NCBI GenBank assembly: GCA_905182275.1
Contig: CAJJAU010000057.1
Coordinates: 1-64,000 of the forward strand
DNA length: 64,000 bases
Source: a gamma proteobacterium HTCC2207
Lineage (GTDB): Bacteria; Pseudomonadota; Gammaproteobacteria; Pseudomonadales; Porticoccaceae
Direction of reading: 5' to 3'
Below are positions 48,919 to 58,733 of this stretch, one piece after another. A program made the translations under genes and the position numbers. Positions within the stretch are counted from its first letter, which is position 1; each line of letters opens with the position of its first letter. The notes below the pieces were generated by a model. The model saw nothing but the letters and a program-made list of their open reading frames with translations. It searched no databases and was not told the origin of the DNA.

Positions 48919-50187
48919 ATGGCTAGATTGTTGTATTCAGTGCTGTTTTATTGCCTATTGCCAGCGATAGGTTTGCGATTGCTGTGGCGCGGGCTAAAGT
49001 CCCCGAACTATTTTCGGCGATGGGCCGAACGGTTTGGTTTCTGTCGCATACATAATTCAGAGGCTCCGACTATTTGGCTACACGCAGTCTCTGTGGGCGA
49101 AACCCTCGCCGCGGTACCACTGGTTAGGGCATTGCAAGAAAAATACACCAACCATAAACTCTTTATTACCTGTATGACGCCAACAGGTTCAGACCGCGTG
49201 TTATCGATATTTGGTGATTCGGTTGAGCACAGCTATGCGCCTTACGATTTGCCGGATGCCGTAGCGAGATTTTTAAATCGGGTTGATCCGAAGCTATTGA
49301 TCATCATGGAAACAGAACTTTGGCCCAATACTATTGCTGCCTGTAAGCGACGAGGTATTCCGGTGATCGTGGCAAATGCTCGCTTATCTGAAAAATCTGC
49401 TCGAGGGTATCAGCGCATTAGCCCTATTGTGGCGCCCATGCTAAATAACCTGCACACCGTTGCCGCCCAGCATATCGATGACGCCCGACGTTTCCAGAGT
49501 CTAGGATTGCCGCAAAGTGGCTCAGTGGTGACGGGCAACATCAAGTTTGATCTACATCTTGATCAGGATTTACGTGCTAAGGCGAGCCAATTATTAGAGG
49601 ATTGGAGAGGTATAGGTAACAGACCAATACTACTAGCCGCGAGTACTCATAAGGGTGAAGATGAGTTGATTTTAGCAGCGTTCACAAAAATAAAAATGCA
49701 GGTGGACTCATTGCTTCTGGTATTAGTACCACGTCACCCTGAGCGCTTCAACCAGGTGGCGGAGCTCTGTCAAAAAACAGGATTTACCACGGTTAGACGC
49801 AGCAGTAATGTATCAACAGCGGGAGCGGACATATTGCTCGGGGATAGCATGGGCGAGCTAATGACTTTCTTTGGCGCCTGTGACTTAGCCTTTGTTGGCG
49901 GTAGTTTAGTGCCAACCGGCGGCCACAATGTGATTGAGCCAGCTGCCTGGGGTGTGCCGGTACTAACCGGCCCACACTTGTTCAATTTCTCTGAAGCATC
50001 AGAGTTGCTAATGGGTGGTGGCGGAATGTTGATTTGCCAAAATAGCGACGAGTTAGCCAGTCACTGCAGCCGCTTACTTCAAGATGAGAGTATCCGCCAG
50101 ACAATGAGCCTTGCCGCACGCCAGGTTGCAGAAGCTAACCGTGGCGCGTTGGATCGATTACTCGCAGTGATTGAGCCGATTATTTAG
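48919..50187 (+). CDS. waaA: 3-deoxy-D-manno-octulosonic acid (Kdo) transferase
   Basis: WaaA adds Kdo residues from CMP-Kdo to lipid IVA in LPS inner core synthesis, at the inner membrane. The 422-residue protein has one N-terminal hydrophobic segment, then H-A-V-S-V-G-E-T near residues 50-57 with the catalytic glutamate, M-E-T-E-L-W-P-N near 133-140, and G-G-S-L-V-P-T-G-G-H-N-V-I-E-P-A near 331-346. Length matches E. coli WaaA (425). It ends overlapping tolC by eight bases on the opposite strand. Confidence 0.97.
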   Translation: MARLLYSVLFYCLLPAIGLRLLWRGLKSPNYFRRWAERFGFCRIHNSEAPTIWLHAVSVGETLAAVPLVRALQEKYTNHKLFITCMTPTGSDRVLSIFGDSVEHSYAPYDLPDAVARFLNRVDPKLLIIMETELWPNTIAACKRRGIPVIVANARLSEKSARGYQRISPIVAPMLNNLHTVAAQHIDDARRFQSLGLPQSGSVVTGNIKFDLHLDQDLRAKASQLLEDWRGIGNRPILLAASTHKGEDELILAAFTKIKMQVDSLLLVLVPRHPERFNQVAELCQKTGFTTVRRSSNVSTAGADILLGDSMGELMTFFGACDLAFVGGSLVPTGGHNVIEPAAWGVPVLTGPHLFNFSEASELLMGGGGMLICQNSDELASHCSRLLQDESIRQTMSLAARQVAEANRGALDRLLAVIEPII

Positions 50188-51577
50188 CCACTGTTAGACT
50201 TGGATCTAACCAGGCATTCAGTTGGTAAATATCATCGGGCGACAACTGCCCGGCAACTTCCTTTAACTGCATCATCGCAAAAATATAGTCATAGCGAGCA
50301 TTCGCATAGTTTCGCTTTGCTTGGAATACTGAGCGTTGCGCGGCAAGCACATCAACGATGTTTCGTGTACCTACTTCGTACCCTGCTTGGGTAGCATTTC
50401 TAGCACTTTCAGCTGAAGTTATCGCCTGTTTGCGAGCCTTGACTCGTGCTGTGTTTGTGATGACTAATTGGTGCCTGGAGCGGGCTGTTTGAGCGGTATT
50501 TCGCTTGGCTACCTCGAAATTTTCACTCGCCGCAATAGAACGTTGTTTAGCTTGTCGTCGCCCTGAATTAATACCACTTGCCCAAATAGGCATACTTAAA
50601 GAAACACCAAAGCTATGCCCATCACTCAAGGATGATACGCCAGAGCTACTTTCAGTCGGCAGATAACTAGTCTGGGTTCCATCTGAATCGGTATCCGAAT
50701 AACGGGCGCTTGCTGTAATTTTGGGGTACAGCTGAGCAGTAGCAGCCTTCGCTTGGTTATAGGATGAATCTTTACCTAGTTCTGCGACTTTTAATTGGTA
50801 ATTATTGTTGAGGGAAAAACTTACCCAGTCTTGACTATCCAAAGGCTCAGGATTCACCGCCATGAATCCGTCTGTCAACCCTGACAGAGAGTCATGGTTT
50901 TGCCCCGTTAGTACTTGCAGAGCATCGAATGCAATATTGAGCGCACCCTGTGCTTCTAAGCTATTGACCAAGGCATCATCATAGATCGCTTGAGCTTCGT
51001 GCACGTCGGTAATTGGTAGTAAACCGACTTCAAAGCGCTCTTGGGTTTGCTCTAATTGCCGCTGAATAGCACGCTGTTCGGCCTTACGTGTTTCATTATT
51101 ATCAAAGGCACGCAACGCGTTGAGATAGGCACTGCTAACACGCAAAATCAAAGACTGCTGGTCAGAGGCAAACTGCGCGCTGGCACTTTCACTCAGTGCT
51201 TTACCACTTTGAAATTGGTACCAGGCGGGCATGTCAAAAATCGCTTGGGTAAGCGAAACACCATAGGATGTGGTATCAGTATCAGAGAAACTTTTACTTA
51301 AAAACGGGTCATCTTGTATAAATGAGTAGACCTGCGAGGATTCACTATTTCTTTCAGTCCGAGTAAAGTCCGCCGATGCTGATATAACCGGTAGCAGATA
51401 GGCGCGACTAATATTTTTAGTTTCGCGCCCTACTTGGAAATTAGCCCGTGCGGCACGCAACGTGGGGTCGCTCTGCAGCGCCAGTTCGTAAATATCTGTT
51501 AAGGAATCTGCCGCACTACCCTGCGATATAAAAGCAACACTACAGAGGGTTAAAAATCCTTGTTTTACCTTCAACAT
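50180..51577 (-). CDS. tolC: TolC-family outer membrane efflux channel
   Basis: The 465-residue protein has a signal peptide (to about residue 22, G-S-A-A-D), then the internally repeated OEP helical pattern. The first repeat has D-P-T-L-R-A-A-R-A-N near residue 36 and the second Q-A-G-Y-E-V-G-T-R-N-I-V-D-V-L near 405, both usual for TolC. It forms the trimeric outer-membrane duct for efflux pumps and type I secretion. An adaptor/RND block lies just beyond it and lacks its own channel gene, so TolC is the likely partner. Confidence 0.95.
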   Translation of the reverse strand: MLKVKQGFLTLCSVAFISQGSAADSLTDIYELALQSDPTLRAARANFQVGRETKNISRAYLLPVISASADFTRTERNSESSQVYSFIQDDPFLSKSFSDTDTTSYGVSLTQAIFDMPAWYQFQSGKALSESASAQFASDQQSLILRVSSAYLNALRAFDNNETRKAEQRAIQRQLEQTQERFEVGLLPITDVHEAQAIYDDALVNSLEAQGALNIAFDALQVLTGQNHDSLSGLTDGFMAVNPEPLDSQDWVSFSLNNNYQLKVAELGKDSSYNQAKAATAQLYPKITASARYSDTDSDGTQTSYLPTESSSGVSSLSDGHSFGVSLSMPIWASGINSGRRQAKQRSIAASENFEVAKRNTAQTARSRHQLVITNTARVKARKQAITSAESARNATQAGYEVGTRNIVDVLAAQRSVFQAKRNYANARYDYIFAMMQLKEVAGQLSPDDIYQLNAWLDPSLTVAK

Positions 51578-51837
51578 ACAAACTCCGTTATTAATTTTAT
51601 TGTGGCCCCGCTATACGAGCATTTTAGCAGACTTGCCTTGGGTGTTGTGAGTAGCAATTTTCTTTAACTTAGACGCTGTCACCAGTAGTTATAGATTCAC
51701 CAGAATATCAAAAAAGACATCCAGCACAAGCCAACGTTTTTAAACCGAATTGGTTGACTGCACAGTTAACCAGTTGGGCTTGTGGTTATTATTTTAACGC
51801 CCTACTAAACTCTGTTTGTACGCACAAACCGCTCAAA
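51578..51837. other. Region upstream of tolC
   Basis: No gene is seen. The tolC promoter must lie here on the minus strand. A loose inverted repeat (GTTGACTGCACAGTTAAC near 51751-51768) is visible, but no clear hexamer pair. Confidence 0.4.
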
Positions 51838-51903
51838 ATAGCCAAAAAGCATCAATTTAATCAGTCGGACGTTCGCCTTGAGTCGCAGAACACCGTATTT
51901 CAA
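51838..51903 (+). repeat. Left copy of nudF-derived direct repeat flanking the efflux block
   Basis: This 66-base stretch pairs with 56821-56886, in the same orientation, at about 82% identity by hand count. The two copies bracket the TetR/adaptor/RND genes. It is not a perfect target-site duplication; it is better read as homologous gene ends at a recombination junction. Confidence 0.8.
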
Positions 51904-51942
51904 ATTTTTTAGATTGAATCGCCTCACTTTCATTCCACTTAA
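51838..51942 (+). pseudogene. Divergent partial copy of nudF, 5' end
   Basis: The 66 bases at 51838-51903 match the first 66 bases of nudF (56821-56886) at 54 positions by hand count, and the match continues less clearly to about 51942 after a two-base deletion. The read-out is (I)-A-K-K-H-Q-F-N-Q-S-D-V-R-L-E-S then a frameshift and stop. The start codon has become ATA. Eight of the twelve differences lie at third codon positions, so the two copies diverged while coding. It is a dead nudF fragment next to tolC, where nudF lies in relatives. Confidence 0.85.
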
Positions 51943-51955
51943 GGGTCACCAACGG

Positions 51956-52558
51956 CTATGAAAAATCTAGGCTTTTAACAAAACTTCCAAGCATTTTCTC
52001 GAGATTCTCTTTTACTGTAGAGGATGCCTTAACAAAAGCAGTCTGTGCTGATGTGTCTCCTCGTTGATTTATCCGAATAATAGCCAGTAGTCCATGTACG
52101 TATGCAAGCATTGAGATGCCATTAAGTTGCAATGAATCTGCATTGCCTTGGTGCAAATGCTGCAATCTTTTTAAAAGCATTCCAAAGGCCTTGTCAGCGG
52201 CTGCTAATAGCTCAGGGAAATCAGTTTTTTTCATTGGATAGTTAAACATCAGATCTATTATATGTTCGTTGGCTAATCCAAATTCAATATAGGTCACACC
52301 GCATTTTACGAGATCATCCGTTCTGTTGTCGGTGGTTTTATTCTTGTTCATTTCTGAGGAAAACTTTTCAAAGCCGAGTGTGGCAACCTCTGCCAGCATA
52401 TGTTCTTTTGAATCAAAGTGCCGGTAGGGCGCGGTTTGAGAAACCTTTGCGATTTTCGCTATCTTCCTAAGACTAATGCTCTCGATTCCATTGGATGAGA
52501 TCCAATCATAGGCGCAAAAAATTAGTTGCTCTCTTAAATTGCCATGATGATATTGCAT
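51956..52558 (-). CDS. TetR-family repressor of the RND block
   Basis: The 200-residue protein has an N-terminal TetR helix-turn-helix (I-S-L-R-K-I-A-K-I-A-K-V-S near residues 23-35, then A-P-Y-R-H-F-D-S-K near 43-51), followed by a helical ligand-binding domain. It diverges from the adaptor gene across 89 bases which hold two related inverted sites and a promoter, so it very likely represses the pump operon and itself. The inducer is unknown. Confidence 0.9.
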   Translation of the reverse strand: MQYHHGNLREQLIFCAYDWISSNGIESISLRKIAKIAKVSQTAPYRHFDSKEHMLAEVATLGFEKFSSEMNKNKTTDNRTDDLVKCGVTYIEFGLANEHIIDLMFNYPMKKTDFPELLAAADKAFGMLLKRLQHLHQGNADSLQLNGISMLAYVHGLLAIIRINQRGDTSAQTAFVKASSTVKENLEKMLGSFVKSLDFS

Positions 52559-52581
52559 TGTGCCACCAATTCATTTTCAAG

Positions 52582-52608
52582 TTGACAGTGTAAACTTTAG
52601 ACTATAAT
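52582..52608 (+). promoter_or_regulatory. Promoter of the RND pump operon
   Basis: Perfect consensus hexamers TTGACA (52582-52587) and TATAAT (52603-52608) lie 15 bases apart, shorter than the ideal 17. Short spacing is seen in promoters that need help or distortion, but a repressed promoter is equally likely. It lies 40 bases before the adaptor ATG. Confidence 0.6.
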
Positions 52609-52632
52609 GTGCTCAGTGTAAACATTATACAC
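52587..52632. promoter_or_regulatory. Two TetR operator-like sites
   Basis: AGTGTAAAC occurs twice (52587-52595 and 52615-52623), 28 bases apart. Each starts an imperfect palindrome: AGTGTA-N5-TAGACT at 52587-52603 and GTGTA-N7-TACAC at 52616-52632. The first covers the spacer between the -35 and -10 boxes, the second lies just after the -10 box; binding there would block transcription. Confidence 0.55.
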
Positions 52633-52647
52633 AGATGTGTGGCCCCT

Positions 52648-53628
52648 ATGAAAAAAGTATTAACAATATCGCTTCTATTCCTCACAGCCTCTGTTATAGC
52701 AGAGAAATATGTTGATTTACACGAAGTGACTATAGTCGAAGAATATGGCGTCGATAAAATGCTGCCGGCTAAAGTCGTCCCGAAAAGACAATCTATCTTA
52801 GGATTTGAGGTGCCGGGTAAAGTTAAAATCATCAAAGTAGATATTGGCGATAAGGTTGTCAAAGGTGACTTATTGGCGGAATTAGAAGATTCGGAGGCCT
52901 TGGCACGTTTAAACGAAGCTAAAGCTAATTTATCTATGGCCAAAAACATTTTTGAGCGCTCTCAAGTATTAGATCAAGCCGATTATGTGTCAGAGCAGAG
53001 ACTGGAGAATGAAGAGTTTAGATTTTTAATTGCCAAGGCTCAGTATGAAGGCGCGGTCACTAAATTCCAGCAAACAAAAATCCTTGCGCCCTATGACGGC
53101 ATTATTCAACGTCGCCTGTTAGATGAAGGATCAATTGTTAATCCCAGCGTTCCAGTCTTGGAAATTTTAGACTCTATCTATGTTGAAGCAAGGGTTTCCT
53201 TGCCAAAATCAATTATTAAAAGCGTTAACCTGGGCCAAAAATATCCCTTTATCATTGGTGATGAAAGCTTTGATGCAACCTTAATGAGATTGGCGCCTAT
53301 GTCATCTAGAGGATCCAACAATCGTTTAGGGATATTTGCATTTGATGCCTTTTTTAATCCAGGTGAAACAGCCAGGCTCGTTTTAAACATAAAAGAGGCC
53401 AAGCGCGGAACTTGGGTTCCGCTGAATGCTTTATCTCAAGCAGAGCAGGGCCTTTGGACTGTATTCACAGTCTCCAGTGATAACAGCGCGCAAAAAGATT
53501 ATGTCGAGCTAATCCATATTGAAAAGACCATGGCCTATGTGTCTGGGACTTTAAAAACCGGTGATAAGGTTATTGTTGGCGGTGCATCGAAAGTTGCAGA
53601 AGGCCAAGCTGTGAGAGACAGTCAATGA
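52648..53628 (+). CDS. RND efflux periplasmic adaptor (membrane fusion protein)
   Basis: The 326-residue protein has a signal peptide (K-K-V-L-T-I-S-L-L-F-L then V-I-A), a lipoyl-type domain split around a short helical hairpin (residues about 45-170, with D-I-G-D-K-V-V-K-G near 68), and beta-barrel and membrane-proximal domains. It bridges the RND pump to TolC. The ATG at 52648 starts the signal peptide directly; an in-frame ATG 39 bases earlier falls on the -10 box. The hairpin is short, as in smaller adaptors. It overlaps the pump gene by four bases. Confidence 0.9.
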   Translation: MKKVLTISLLFLTASVIAEKYVDLHEVTIVEEYGVDKMLPAKVVPKRQSILGFEVPGKVKIIKVDIGDKVVKGDLLAELEDSEALARLNEAKANLSMAKNIFERSQVLDQADYVSEQRLENEEFRFLIAKAQYEGAVTKFQQTKILAPYDGIIQRRLLDEGSIVNPSVPVLEILDSIYVEARVSLPKSIIKSVNLGQKYPFIIGDESFDATLMRLAPMSSRGSNNRLGIFAFDAFFNPGETARLVLNIKEAKRGTWVPLNALSQAEQGLWTVFTVSSDNSAQKDYVELIHIEKTMAYVSGTLKTGDKVIVGGASKVAEGQAVRDSQ

Positions 53629-56600
53629 GAAAAATTGTTGACCTCTATTTAGATAGGCCTAGAATTTTTCTTCTTGCAATGCTGTTCATTATTGCGGGTG
53701 GCTTATTGTCCTATGATTCACTGCCTCGGCAGGAGAATCCTCAACTAGCAGAGCGTTGGGCCAATATTACAGCGGTTTTACCGGGCGCCACACCACAAAG
53801 AGTGGAGACTCAAATAGCGGATGTTCTAGAAACGCAACTTCGAGAAATTGACGAAATTAAAATCATAGACTCTACCTCTTTGTCTGGCGTTGTGAGAGTC
53901 GGATTAGAACTCAAAGAAATTATTGGTAAAGGTGAAACCGATGAAGTTTGGGCGAAAGTTCAGGAGACGTTAAGCCAGAGTGCTGCGTTAGTTCCACCGG
54001 GAACTAACATCAGTTTTAACCATAGCGGGCCACCAACAACAGTCCTATTTGCTCTGCAGTGGCGAGGGGATGGTGAACCCCAGATGGTCATTTTATCTAG
54101 GTTAGCTAACCAGTTTAAAAGAAAATTAGCTAATATTACGAATTCAAAGCAAGCCTTAGTTTACGGTGATACCAAAGAAGAAATTTTTGTAGGAGCTGAT
54201 TTAGACTTACTGACCGATGCTGGAATGAATATCCAGTCTATCGCCATTGCAATAGACCGATATGACAGTAAGAGAGCGATTGGTAATATTGTTGGGCAAG
54301 ACGCTGAGTTTCGAATAAAAGCGCACGACAATATTTCATTAATCAACGATTTAAAGAAATTACCGTTAAAAATATCGGATGATTATCAAGCTATTAGACT
54401 TGAGGATGTGGCAACGGTAGAAAAATTGCCGGTCGATCCTCCTATTGAGATCGTAAGCTACAATGGAATACCGTCAGTATTTGTTGAAGTACGAGGAAAA
54501 TTCGCTCAAAGAACAGATCTGTATTCCAAAGCAGTGCTGCGCGTTGCTGATATATTTAAAGAGGGTCTGCCTGACGAAATCGGCTTAGAGGTCATCTTTA
54601 ATGAATCTGATTTTGTTGAAGAAAAGTTCTCTTTTTTGATGCAAAGCATCCTGCTGGCCACTTTTATTGTCTTATTCTTAAGTTATTTACTTCTCGGTCC
54701 TCGTTCTGCTGTCATTGTCAGTGCCGTCGTTCCCTTGACTATTTTATTGGTCCTTATTGGATGTACTATTTTACAGGTTCCGCTGCATCAAACATCCGTG
54801 ACTGGCATTATTTTGTCCTTGGGTCTGTTAATCGATAATTCAATCATCGTTGTTGAAGACTATAGGTACCGTAAATCTCAGAAGTTAGTCAATAGAGAGG
54901 CTATTTACGCCTCGATTAAGCATCTCTCGTTACCACTGCTAGCGGCTACGGTAACAACCGGATTAGCCTTTATGCCAATGGCCGCGGGTAAGGGCGCGAG
55001 CCCTGAATTTGTTGGTGATATGGCGATCACCATTATATTAGCGGTATCTTCCTCGTTATTTTTAGCACTGACAGTGGTTCCTGTACTGTTAAAAACGATG
55101 GAAGACTCAAATTTTTTGAATTTAAATAAATCTAAAAATATTGGGTTTAGCCACCAAGGGTTACGGACACGCTACAGAGCCTTTTTAGCGTGGGCTTTAT
55201 TTAAGCCGGGCCGCGCGCTGGTGTTATCTTTAATTCTTCCAATACTAGGTTTTGTTTCTTTTGGCTTTTTAGATACAGATTTTTTCCCAAATCAAGGGAA
55301 GACTATGTTCAAGGTAGAGGTAGAGCTTGACGCTAATGCCTCTATCTATGCCACTAATAAGAGAGTGATTAGTATTCGAGATCAAGTCTTGCTAGAGGAT
55401 TATGTTACTCGTGATATGTGGTGGGTTGGACGACGTCTACCCAGGCTATTATATAACATCATCGGCGGGCCGTCGGGCGAGGGTTCAGATAACCTTGCAA
55501 CAGGTGTATTCTTTACCTCTTCTTACAGCCAAATGGATTCAAGTCTGGCTAATTTGGCCAAGCGTTTGGAAAAAGATCATGCTGATGTGAGGGTAAGAGT
55601 CAGCAAGTTTACCAATGGACCTCCGGTTGAATTTCCAGTGAACATTGCTATTTTTGGTGACGACAATCAGGTTTTAAAATCATTGGGAGAAGAGCTTAAA
55701 TCGATTTTGGCTAAATCTCCGCAAGTCAGTGATGTACTGGCAGATCAGTCTGCTAGTGTCACTGGATTAGAAATTAATCTAGATGAAGTCAATCTGGCCT
55801 TTTCATCTAAATCATCACAGGAGATTATCGATCAGATTTCAGCATCGACAAGAGGCATTTATGTCGGCTCTATGCTCGATGGAAATAAAGAAGTTCCTAT
55901 CCGTATCAAAAATAAAAATCGTGAAGCATCGGAAGTTAACCAGACAGCATTTTTAGCTATAAATAGTGCAGAGGGATTTGATTATGTGGAGAGTTTTTCT
56001 GATATTTCATATACCAGTGAAATTAACCAAATCAATCGATATCAAGGAACTAGAAATAACGCGGTGAAAGCAGCCGTTTATCCCGGCACGTTAGCATCCA
56101 CAGTGTTAAATGATGTCGCAGATGAGTTAAAAGCATTCGAAGATTCTTTACCCGTGGGCTATAGCATTGCCCAATTCGGCGACGCCGAGGAAAGAGCAGA
56201 ATCGTTCGGACAACTATTTAGTACCTTTTTCTTGTTTTTAGGCTTAATTGTGATGACCTTGGTCATGATATTAAATAGTTTTCGCCAAGCGAGTATTATT
56301 TTACTCGTTGGTACCCTTTGTATTGGTCTTGGCTTTTTAGGAATGTTTGTCGGGTTCCAAAACTTTGGTTTTATTGGCTTAGTCGGTATTGTTGGTCTAG
56401 CTGGGTTAGCGATTAATGATTCCATCGTGGTTCTGTCCCATCTCAATGAAGATGCTGGAACAGGCCAGGTTTCAAAAGATACATTGATTGAAACGACTGT
56501 TAGATCGACTCGCCATATTCTGACGACATCGCTGACAACAATGGGTGGCCTATTGCCGCTGTTATTTGATAAGTTTTTTGAAACCTTAGCTTGGGCTATG

Positions 56601-56684
56601 TGTTTTGGCGTCATGGGATCTGCGTTGCTGGCCTTGTTGTTAATTCCTTCTATGTTCTGTTTTTTGGGCAAGGTTAGTGATTAA
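53625..56684 (+). CDS. RND efflux transporter permease
   Basis: The 1019-residue protein has the RND layout: one membrane segment at residues 12-29, a large periplasmic loop, a six-helix bundle (about 335-490), a second segment near 530-548, a second loop and final helices (about 862-1015). The proton relay departs from AcrB: in TM4 the D-D pair is D404-N405 (L-I-D-N-S-I), and in TM10 the AcrB lysine position reads I930 with D932 near (A-I-N-D-S-I). That combination occurs in other RND branches. Substrates are unknown. It pairs with the adaptor and likely TolC. Confidence 0.92.
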   Translation: MRKIVDLYLDRPRIFLLAMLFIIAGGLLSYDSLPRQENPQLAERWANITAVLPGATPQRVETQIADVLETQLREIDEIKIIDSTSLSGVVRVGLELKEIIGKGETDEVWAKVQETLSQSAALVPPGTNISFNHSGPPTTVLFALQWRGDGEPQMVILSRLANQFKRKLANITNSKQALVYGDTKEEIFVGADLDLLTDAGMNIQSIAIAIDRYDSKRAIGNIVGQDAEFRIKAHDNISLINDLKKLPLKISDDYQAIRLEDVATVEKLPVDPPIEIVSYNGIPSVFVEVRGKFAQRTDLYSKAVLRVADIFKEGLPDEIGLEVIFNESDFVEEKFSFLMQSILLATFIVLFLSYLLLGPRSAVIVSAVVPLTILLVLIGCTILQVPLHQTSVTGIILSLGLLIDNSIIVVEDYRYRKSQKLVNREAIYASIKHLSLPLLAATVTTGLAFMPMAAGKGASPEFVGDMAITIILAVSSSLFLALTVVPVLLKTMEDSNFLNLNKSKNIGFSHQGLRTRYRAFLAWALFKPGRALVLSLILPILGFVSFGFLDTDFFPNQGKTMFKVEVELDANASIYATNKRVISIRDQVLLEDYVTRDMWWVGRRLPRLLYNIIGGPSGEGSDNLATGVFFTSSYSQMDSSLANLAKRLEKDHADVRVRVSKFTNGPPVEFPVNIAIFGDDNQVLKSLGEELKSILAKSPQVSDVLADQSASVTGLEINLDEVNLAFSSKSSQEIIDQISASTRGIYVGSMLDGNKEVPIRIKNKNREASEVNQTAFLAINSAEGFDYVESFSDISYTSEINQINRYQGTRNNAVKAAVYPGTLASTVLNDVADELKAFEDSLPVGYSIAQFGDAEERAESFGQLFSTFFLFLGLIVMTLVMILNSFRQASIILLVGTLCIGLGFLGMFVGFQNFGFIGLVGIVGLAGLAINDSIVVLSHLNEDAGTGQVSKDTLIETTVRSTRHILTTSLTTMGGLLPLLFDKFFETLAWAMCFGVMGSALLALLLIPSMFCFLGKVSD

Positions 56685-56820
56685 ATTGTCCTTATAACGC
56701 GGTAAAATTTAATCAGTCACCGATATTACTATCCATCACGTTAACAACTGTTTAACGCTAGGTTTAATCAATCTAGAACAATCAGCCGTACACATTATTA
56801 CTTTTAATGAGAGTGTTTCA

Positions 56821-56886
56821 ATGGCCAAAAAACATCAATTTAACCAGTCTGACGTTCGTATTGAATCCAAGGACACTATATTTCAA
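56821..56886 (+). repeat. Right copy of the nudF-derived direct repeat
   Basis: These are the first 66 bases of intact nudF; the damaged copy is at 51838-51903 in the same orientation. Confidence 0.8.
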
Positions 56887-57423
56887 GGCTTCTTTAAAGT
56901 GAGCCGCTTTACTCTCAGCCACCGCCTTTTTGGCGGCGGTTGGAGTAGGCCAATAAAACGTGAAATATTTCAGCGCGGCTCAGCCGTAGGGGTTTTACTT
57001 TATGATCCCATCAACCAATTGGTCGGTTTAGTTGAGCAGTTTCGGGTTGGTGCTCTCGATGATAATCAGGGCCCTTGGCAATATGAGGTGGTGGCCGGGA
57101 TGATAGAGCCAGGTGAAACACCTATTGATGTCGCTCACCGAGAATTACAGGAAGAAGCTGGATTGGCAGTAGAAAAGCTAATTCCCATATGTAATTATCT
57201 GGTCAGTGCCGGGGGTACTGACGAAAAAATGCATATGTTTTGTGGCTTAGTAAATTTGCAAGATAAGCAGGGTGTGTTTGGTTTAGAGGCTGAGAATGAA
57301 GATATTTTGCTGCATGTCTGGCCCTATCATGAGGCTCAGCAGGCCTTAGCTGACGGAACATTAAACAGTGCTGCGGTCACTATTTCTTTGCAATGGTTAG
57401 AACTCCATCACAATAATTTGTGA
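56821..57423 (+). CDS. nudF: ADP-ribose pyrophosphatase
   Basis: NudF hydrolyses ADP-ribose and related sugars. The 200-residue Nudix protein has G-M-I-E-P-G-E near residues 97-103 and R-E-L-Q-E-E-A-G-L near 111-119 as the Nudix box. It heads the nudF-yqiB-cpdA-yqiA-parE run, which in E. coli and Pseudomonas lies beside tolC; here the RND block separates them, with a second damaged copy of its 5' end next to tolC. It is intact. Confidence 0.95.
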   Translation: MAKKHQFNQSDVRIESKDTIFQGFFKVSRFTLSHRLFGGGWSRPIKREIFQRGSAVGVLLYDPINQLVGLVEQFRVGALDDNQGPWQYEVVAGMIEPGETPIDVAHRELQEEAGLAVEKLIPICNYLVSAGGTDEKMHMFCGLVNLQDKQGVFGLEAENEDILLHVWPYHEAQQALADGTLNSAAVTISLQWLELHHNNL

Positions 57424-57947: not shown

Positions 57948-58733
57948 ATGCCCAAGACGCAGCTGACCCAGATTACCGATCTACATTTTGGCGAAACCCC
58001 AGAATTTACTCTCGCCGGCATAAGACCTCTGGACAGTTTTAAAGCGGTTCTGGATGCCGTAAATGATGCTGGTCGAGGAGACGACTTACTCCTTCTGTCA
58101 GGGGATCTGTCGGGTACGAGTAGTGCCGAATCTTACATTATGCTCAATCAACTGCTACAGGATTACGGTAAACAAGCGTTGTGGCTGCCGGGTAACCATG
58201 ACAATGTTGAGCTGATGAAAAAACACTTGGTTAATTATCCGCCATACCCGGTCTGGGAAATGGGTGACTGGGGTATTCTTACCTTGGACAGTTCCCAATC
58301 GGAAACACCTATTGGTCATATCAGGGATGAGGAACTACGGCTGGTGGAAGATCGGTTGGACCAGTTAAAGAGTAAGTCTATCCTAGTCTCTATGCATCAC
58401 TGCCCTATCGCATTGGGGTGCCAGTGGCTAGACAAGCAAAAGGTTAATAATCCCGACGGTCTGTATGAATTATTGGCCTCTCACTCAAACGTCAAGCTAG
58501 TGGTTACCGGGCATGTGCATCAGCAGTACGATGGCCTATGGAATAATTTGCCCTTATACACAACACCCTCTTCGAGCATTCAGTTCAAACAGCACAGCGT
58601 TGATTTCGCTATATCAGATCAGCCCCCTGGCTACCGGTGGTTTGATTTAGGCGCTGACGGAACTATAAAGACGGGCGTTGAATTTGCAACTCATTTTGGC
58701 CAACATCCCGACACTAACAATGCGGGTTATTAA
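57948..58733 (+). CDS. cpdA: 3',5'-cyclic AMP phosphodiesterase
   Basis: CpdA hydrolyses cAMP and so lowers CRP activity. The 261-residue metallophosphoesterase has the metal motifs in order: I-T-D-L-H-F near residues 7-12, G-D-L-S near 53-56, G-N-H-D near 83-86, H-H-C-P near 148-151 and G-H-V-H near 188-191. Length and place between yqiB and yqiA match E. coli CpdA. Confidence 0.95.
   Translation: MPKTQLTQITDLHFGETPEFTLAGIRPLDSFKAVLDAVNDAGRGDDLLLLSGDLSGTSSAESYIMLNQLLQDYGKQALWLPGNHDNVELMKKHLVNYPPYPVWEMGDWGILTLDSSQSETPIGHIRDEELRLVEDRLDQLKSKSILVSMHHCPIALGCQWLDKQKVNNPDGLYELLASHSNVKLVVTGHVHQQYDGLWNNLPLYTTPSSSIQFKQHSVDFAISDQPPGYRWFDLGADGTIKTGVEFATHFGQHPDTNNAGY

Follow-up and report, generated by a model that had tools for sequence, protein, structure and literature searches.

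The 64,000-nucleotide stretch analysed here (the window; contig CAJJAU010000057.1 of assembly GCA_905182275.1, gamma proteobacterium HTCC2207), whose relatives by sequence matching belong to the SAR92 clade (Porticoccaceae), carries an efflux-pump cassette of a TetR-family regulator gene, a periplasmic adaptor gene and an RND permease gene between the outer-membrane channel gene tolC and an intact copy of the housekeeping gene nudF. A 5′ fragment of a second nudF is preserved between tolC and the cassette, and this arrangement is a real, well-preserved recombination scar, the mechanism being an ordinary one of a known kind. The account that we favour, and consider fairly probable, is that one-sided recombination through nudF brought DNA holding the pump genes, a spacer and the nudF 5′ part from a near relative, the other end being joined without visible homology.

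The host genome (G000 in the survey below) comprises 2.0 megabases in 88 contigs and is about 91% complete. The genus survey covered 50 genomes, many of them incomplete, and these are numbered with G; loci are numbered with L (G066 = L098; G043 = L136 and L107; G063 = L113; G045 = L114; G048 = L137; G011 = L065; G056 = L155). The anatomy of the locus, in window positions, is as follows.

50180–51577, minus strand: tolC, outer-membrane channel gene on the left flank (Pfam OEP; NCBIfam TIGR01844, 308 bits against a cut-off of 225)
51578–51837: native tolC–nudF intergenic region, 260 base pairs (bp), whole; aligns with the pump-less relatives G003, G007 and G015
51838–51935, plus strand: nudF 5′ fragment, codons 1–32 and a few further bases; also in G066 and, more decayed, in G043
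51936–51955: junction of the nudF fragment with the TetR 3′ end; identical join in G066, additional bases in G043
51956–52558, minus strand: TetR-family regulator, divergent from the pump genes (Pfam TetR_N)
52648–53628, plus strand: periplasmic adaptor (RND_mfp; NCBIfam TIGR01730, 166 bits against a cut-off of 95), its start set at the ATG at 52648, where the alignment with relatives begins
53625–56684, plus strand: RND permease, MexK-like (Pfam ACR_tran; nearest solved structures by sequence are of MexK, E 6e-80)
56685–56820: 136-bp spacer before the intact nudF, by the intergenic comparison not the native tolC–nudF intergenic region
56821–57423, plus strand: intact nudF (ADP-ribose diphosphatase, Nudix; NCBIfam TIGR00052, 137.8 bits against a cut-off of 79.6), of the native lineage in the tree; the protein stays below the cut-off of PRK10729 (209 of 248)

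The nudF fragment and its native position

A search of the host genome with positions 51838–52100 gave no hit other than the query itself and the beginning of the intact nudF (E 5e-13, 76% identity over query bases 1–95), and 94 bases of the fragment correspond to codons 1–32 of the intact gene. The original prediction had described a partial nudF beside tolC with a mutated start codon followed by a frameshift, an intact copy in the same orientation beyond the TetR, adaptor and RND block, and 54 matches over 66 positions with eight of the 12 changes at third codon positions. All of this was borne out: the first codon is ATA, a 2-base deletion follows codon 22, and the recount over the first 66 bp was exact (54/66 identical; 12 differences, distributed 4/0/8 by codon position).

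Relatives without the pump have tolC and nudF in divergent orientation, separated by 259 bp (G003), 260 bp (G007), 261 bp (G015) or 268 bp (G006), and the gap between tolC and the fragment in the host genome is 260 bp, which is the native spacing. These 260 bp align with the tolC–nudF intergenic region of G003 at 164 identical positions of 222, a match equalled in none of 200 shuffles. By sequence comparison, the fragment is evidently the 5′ end of the native nudF at its native site, as had been proposed. The 139 bp before the intact nudF (as cut for the comparison) matched neither the native intergenic regions tested nor the G045, G019 and G021 spacers significantly, so the join at the intact nudF came with the pump. 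The spacer at 56685–56820 is common to G000, G066 and G063. Promoter and terminator scans of both nudF upstream regions yielded nothing exceeding shuffles. The intergenic region of G048 was cut short in this comparison since its nudF match begins at codon 55; the G048 nudF (L137) matches only from codons 54–55 and its 5′ end consists of normal DNA, which suggests a frameshift or an assembly error.

Distribution of the scar among relatives

The 103-base fragment query (E ≤ 0.001) matched six of the 50 genus genomes, and a separate fragment beside tolC was present in three of the six, namely, G000 and two further species, G066 and G043. The other three (G003, G048 and G050) lack the pump, and the query matched only their own nudF. 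The ATA start is restricted to G000 among the scar carriers, both G066 and G043 having ATG, and the 2-base deletion is common to G000 and G066; G043 carries other indels, its fragment being in worse repair. The G043 locus is divided over two contigs (tolC, fragment, TetR and adaptor on one; RND and nudF on the other), and the G063 contig begins inside the RND gene, so the left side with any fragment lies outside that contig. To judge by these matches, the scar is clearly shared by three species, and it is old. An assembly or binning artefact would be conceivable in a fragmented assembly of 88 contigs at about 91% completeness, but the same junction occurs in three separately assembled genomes, and we regard this explanation as practically negligible.

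The arrangement that the original prediction had named as telling against it, two nudF pieces in a relative without the pump, was found in none of the 50 genomes at the above threshold, which more decayed pieces elsewhere could escape. This result also bears on the explanation that the nudF 5′ end was first duplicated in tandem and the cassette inserted later between the pieces. Such a history would agree with copies that were probably near-identical at formation (see below), but it lacks a two-piece, pump-less relative, and the native intergenic region is not repeated in front of the right copy, as it would be after a tandem duplication that included it; we consider this history very unlikely.

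Relationship of the two nudF copies

Trees of ParE, NudF, KdtA and TolC were compared, from which G018, G001b and rows below the coverage limits were left out; in the ParE tree, the G017 row, a distant match at 61% identity, sits on a long branch and is probably not ParE. In the ParE and NudF trees, G000, G066, G063 and G043 adjoin G003, G048 and G050, with some forks open. Of those four, the KdtA tree includes only G000 and G043, which it joins at 100/100, and in the TolC tree G000 and G066 fall in a larger group with G003/G048/G050, G007 and G006, G043 standing apart. Because the placement in the NudF tree mirrors that in the ParE tree, the intact nudF does not look foreign and appears to follow the native lineage as ParE does.

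The original prediction had the intact nudF arriving with the pump, and this stands for the upstream join, which is non-native, and fails for the gene as a whole, which groups with the native lineage (G003/G048/G050). The converse case that it had raised, a native intact copy beside a foreign fragment, was found in its first half only: the intact copy is native-like, and the fragment is not foreign. The corresponding explanation would have a clearly diverged lineage supply both the pump and the intact copy, the latter displacing the native gene, of which the fragment survives. The native position of the fragment and the non-native DNA before the intact copy would fit this history, and the odd intact nudF of G043 could represent the donor type, but the intact nudF of G000, G066 and G063 belongs to the native lineage and is the nearest to the G000 and G066 fragments (0.78–0.84 against at most 0.745), and an excess at third positions can also develop later. 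A foreign intact nudF was rejected as the principal account on the nudF tree and the 5′-end comparison, and we hold it to be distinctly unlikely.

The comparison of the two copies covers a short stretch with small counts. Over 94 aligned bases, the G000 and G066 fragments are 0.78–0.84 identical to the intact nudF of G000, G066 and G063, 0.71–0.74 to that of G043, and 0.63–0.70 to those of G003, G048 and G050; the highest identity to any nudF beyond the intact copies of G000, G066 and G063 is 0.745. The decayed G043 fragment reaches 0.65–0.69 with the intact nudF of G000, G066 and G063, and 0.62 with its own. The two fragments (G000, G066) and three intact copies (G000, G066, G063) form a group with support of 87/90 in a tree of 12 of the 16 aligned rows. 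In the tree of fragments and intact copies from which G047 was left out, the node of the fragments and that of the intact copies are separated by 0.04 + 0.03 (about 0.07) changes per site, and each fragment has since gained about 0.08. Between G000 and G066, the changes by codon position are 4/4/5 in the fragment, a neutral-like pattern, and 5/0/9 in the intact gene, a selection-like one, and the identity of the fragment (0.86) equals that of the 300 bp before it (51500–51799; 0.85). These node distances, codon-position counts and identities support well the view that both copies were probably nearly identical when the scar formed, and likewise that the fragment drifts neutrally; the third-position excess would fit later selection on the intact nudF. 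The claim that the copies had diverged as working genes is accordingly not upheld, the nodes lying about one fragment tip branch apart. A third-position excess between a gene and its own fragment need not imply an old divergence of two working genes.

Formation of the scar

A partial nudF duplicate, one homologous end (nudF) and one join lacking visible homology (about 51935) together argue for single-sided recombination. The nudF 5′ end occurs on both sides of the cassette and gives insert and target a gene in common at one end, and the visible nudF homology ends at about 51935, before TetR. In the proposed sequence of events, a cassette resembling the MexJK system would have entered beside tolC in the ancestor of a SAR92 subclade, the donor being a near relative in which the pump already preceded nudF. 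The incoming DNA would have run from the TetR end through the pump genes and the spacer to the nudF 5′ part, and homologous recombination through nudF would have left this gene intact under a new upstream region. The other end would have joined the native nudF about 32 codons in, with no visible homology, leaving the native intergenic region and the first 94 bases of the native nudF as a dead remnant pointing at TetR. We infer the donor, the linear or circular form of the incoming DNA and the order of the steps; the structure itself is directly observed.

Products of this kind have been obtained in Escherichia coli. In one published experiment, 56 of 60 clones carried a partial duplication of the end of the homologous gene (109–950 bp in 14 sequenced), which was ascribed to one crossover with a circular molecule that had been shortened, and the remaining 4/60 were attributed to homology-facilitated illegitimate recombination (PMC3240628). 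As in the products set out there, the present locus combines homology at one end, a join with no visible homology at the other and a partial gene duplicate beside the insert; unlike those experimental products, it represents an old natural event read from sequence alone. By analogy, shortened-circle crossover and homology-facilitated illegitimate recombination would both yield the structure seen.

Several observations weigh against this account. The intergenic comparison turned up no scar-free donor that has this spacer. The pumps of the scar-bearing species do not form one clade, a group of G000, G066 and G043 being rejected by the approximately unbiased (AU) test for both RND (p-AU 0.0125) and adaptor (p-AU 0.0074), with two of 18 rows left out (SAR86 L112 and L115). 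In the pump tree, from which L101 was omitted as the G056 locus under a second identifier, the G043 pump, which is split over the two contigs, lies outside the G000/G066 group, and the G000 and G066 pumps are nearer to those of other SAR92 species. G043 and G000 are 84% identical in the intact nudF, 88% in the DUF1249 gene and 85% in kdtA, the corresponding values for G003 and G000 being 82, 60 and 70%, and the intact nudF of G043 is too distant from that of G000 given the identity of its neighbours. The placement of the G043 fragment in the tree is unsupported, and a topology holding the four intact copies together was not rejected (p-AU 0.084) with the 94-base fragment, the test of the 5′ end using 12 of 16 aligned rows over about 94 bases. 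Since G043 combines the scar with an outlying pump and an odd nudF, the account has to allow for a replacement at a later time. The pump relationships imply either a swap of the cassette subsequent to scar formation or its outward spread from the G000/G066 branch.

The main rival is the reverse polarity, in which the pump was resident upstream of nudF and a stretch of tolC, intergenic region and nudF 5′ end from a pump-less sibling entered from the left with a homology-free join before TetR, the intact nudF being the resident and the fragment the newcomer. Exactly the same structure would result, and the tangled histories of tolC (that of G043 goes with G015 and G061/G047 and is in parts only 0.53–0.69 identical to that of G000) and the spacers of G000 and G043, alike over 25 bp only, would suit it. 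Against this, an earlier entry of the pump that left no trace would be required, and the tolC of G000 and G066 groups with those of G003/G048/G050, G007 and G006 as a native gene would. We judge the reverse polarity unlikely, thereby retaining entry of the pump by one-sided recombination as the favoured account.

The 0.53–0.69 values for the G043 tolC (L136) refer to DNA identity against window positions 50419–51468; the adjoining kdtA reaches 0.72–0.90, and tolC itself seems to recombine in this group. At the other end of the cassette, the last 165 RND residues are identical in G063 and G000 (L113 positions 3–497 against window positions 56187–56684; DNA identity 0.97–0.98), and in 100-base windows the identity falls gradually through nudF (0.84–0.94) and DUF1249 (0.78–0.88). 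The identical RND end may reflect recent exchange between species in this part of the pump.

Identity of the pump

The cassette resembles MexL–MexJK of Pseudomonas aeruginosa: in both, a regulator gene of the TetR family goes with genes for an adaptor and an RND permease, and the set lacks a channel gene. The TetR gene is divergent from the adaptor and RND genes, as gene order and Pfam domains demonstrate for this layout, and no outer-membrane channel gene was found in the cassette, where the remaining open reading frames (ORFs) of at least 80 amino acids between TetR and nudF only overlap the adaptor or the RND gene. The RND protein remained below the cut-off in all 18 NCBIfam models listed (best 284 bits against 1250), no curated model placing it in MexJK, and only the adaptor passes a subfamily model. 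Because no NCBIfam RND model reaches its cut-off, the pump is MexJK-like in layout and not demonstrated to be MexJK. It also differs from MexJK in being far in sequence (phmmer E 6e-80) and in adjoining tolC. MexJK pairs with OprM or OpmH, and MexL represses MexJK (PMC9323910). The present pump would borrow the neighbouring TolC, and the TetR protein presumably controls the pump genes. The block that this locus has in common with the QueC-site loci described below does not include tolC.

The original prediction had suggested a check of base composition. Among 50 window ORFs of at least 150 amino acids ranked from the lowest guanine-plus-cytosine content, the three pump genes rank 1, 3 and 4 and the intact nudF ranks 15, and the AT-rich pump genes agree with arrival from elsewhere.

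Distribution and movement of the cassette

The RND gene was found in ten of the 50 genus genomes at E ≤ 1e-200, and in 11/50 when G063, on its cut contig, is included. Eight of the 11 pumps lie next to nudF, with tolC on the other side in seven and the G063 contig cut; two lie beside QueC (G011 and G022, the QueC label in G022 resting on ORF likeness to G011), and one, at a contig end, lies near FolD (G056). Beyond the genus, RND relatives were sought through peptide patterns in a search that was not exhaustive. They occur in SAR92-type and SAR86 genomes and are 75–93% identical over full-length matches, and 100% over the cut end in G063. The other SAR92 and SAR86 cassettes have the same genes in the same order as here; TetR was unseen by tblastn in SAR86 loci L112 and L115. 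These other cassettes differ in lying at other sites, between QueC and a sigma factor, on the FolD side or between a GMC oxidoreductase and Wzi, or in being clean mid-intergenic insertions between tolC and nudF without a nudF fragment. In SAR86 loci L102 and L106, where neighbours were scanned on both sides, the pump lies between genes on the GMC-oxidoreductase side and a Wzi-like gene.

In G019, an intergenic region of the native type is split around the pump, the left part matching G060 and G013 and the right part matching G013. To either side of its pump, G021 can be aligned with G019, and it matches the G013 intergenic region at 31/37 positions on the left and 39/46 on the right, and the flanks of G044 are nearly the same as those of G021. 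Among its own relatives, G021 gave no match with G054, and matched G056 (16/17), G009 (14/14) and G064 (29/33, p 0.045) on the left only. Because the G021 flanks match G019 and G013 better than its own relatives, the comparison points to exchange of the cassette together with flanking DNA within the genus. A single tolC–nudF insertion common to the whole genus was rejected: G019 and G021 split the native-type intergenic region, and the scar subclade keeps it whole on the left of the pump. For the same reason, at least two separate entries into the tolC–nudF site, one of the scar type and one of the G019 type, have apparently occurred. In G045 (L114, SAR92 MED-G29), the pump also lies at tolC–nudF and neither flank matches G047 or G061; this is perhaps a third independent entry.

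No mobility gene was found among 28 flanking proteins scanned, covering part of the flanks of L102, L106 and L112 (SAR86) and of L104, L155 and L065. Carriage by a phage, plasmid or virus was rejected, there being no DNA match in plasmids or phages and no cassette relative in viral contigs by the peptide-pattern search. Apparently, the cassette passes from one ocean bacterium to another while carrying no mobility genes itself. It is possible, if on the doubtful side, that a channel-less cassette repeatedly lands, and is exchanged, at the tolC–nudF site, the scar subclade being an early host from which the cassette spread to other SAR92 species by flank-homologous exchange without a mobile element, and that selection favours parking the pump beside its TolC partner. 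No title on this cassette in SAR92 or SAR86 appeared in the literature within the terms searched, as judged by titles.

The locus represents a fossil, shared by three species, of a resistance-type pump entering a chromosome by way of an adjacent housekeeping gene, neither an integrase nor a transposon being in evidence. The scar together with the comparison of flanks across the genus provides a natural case in which transformation-like gene flow among ocean bacteria can be tested.

Two minor observations concern a neighbouring gene and a locus of the survey. Positions 57948–58733 of the window hold a putative cpdA. The cassette of L108, assigned to Flavobacteriaceae TMED48, is nearly the same as that of L104 (UBA2618, Cellvibrionales), with neighbours similar in size, and L108 is probably a mis-binned contig.

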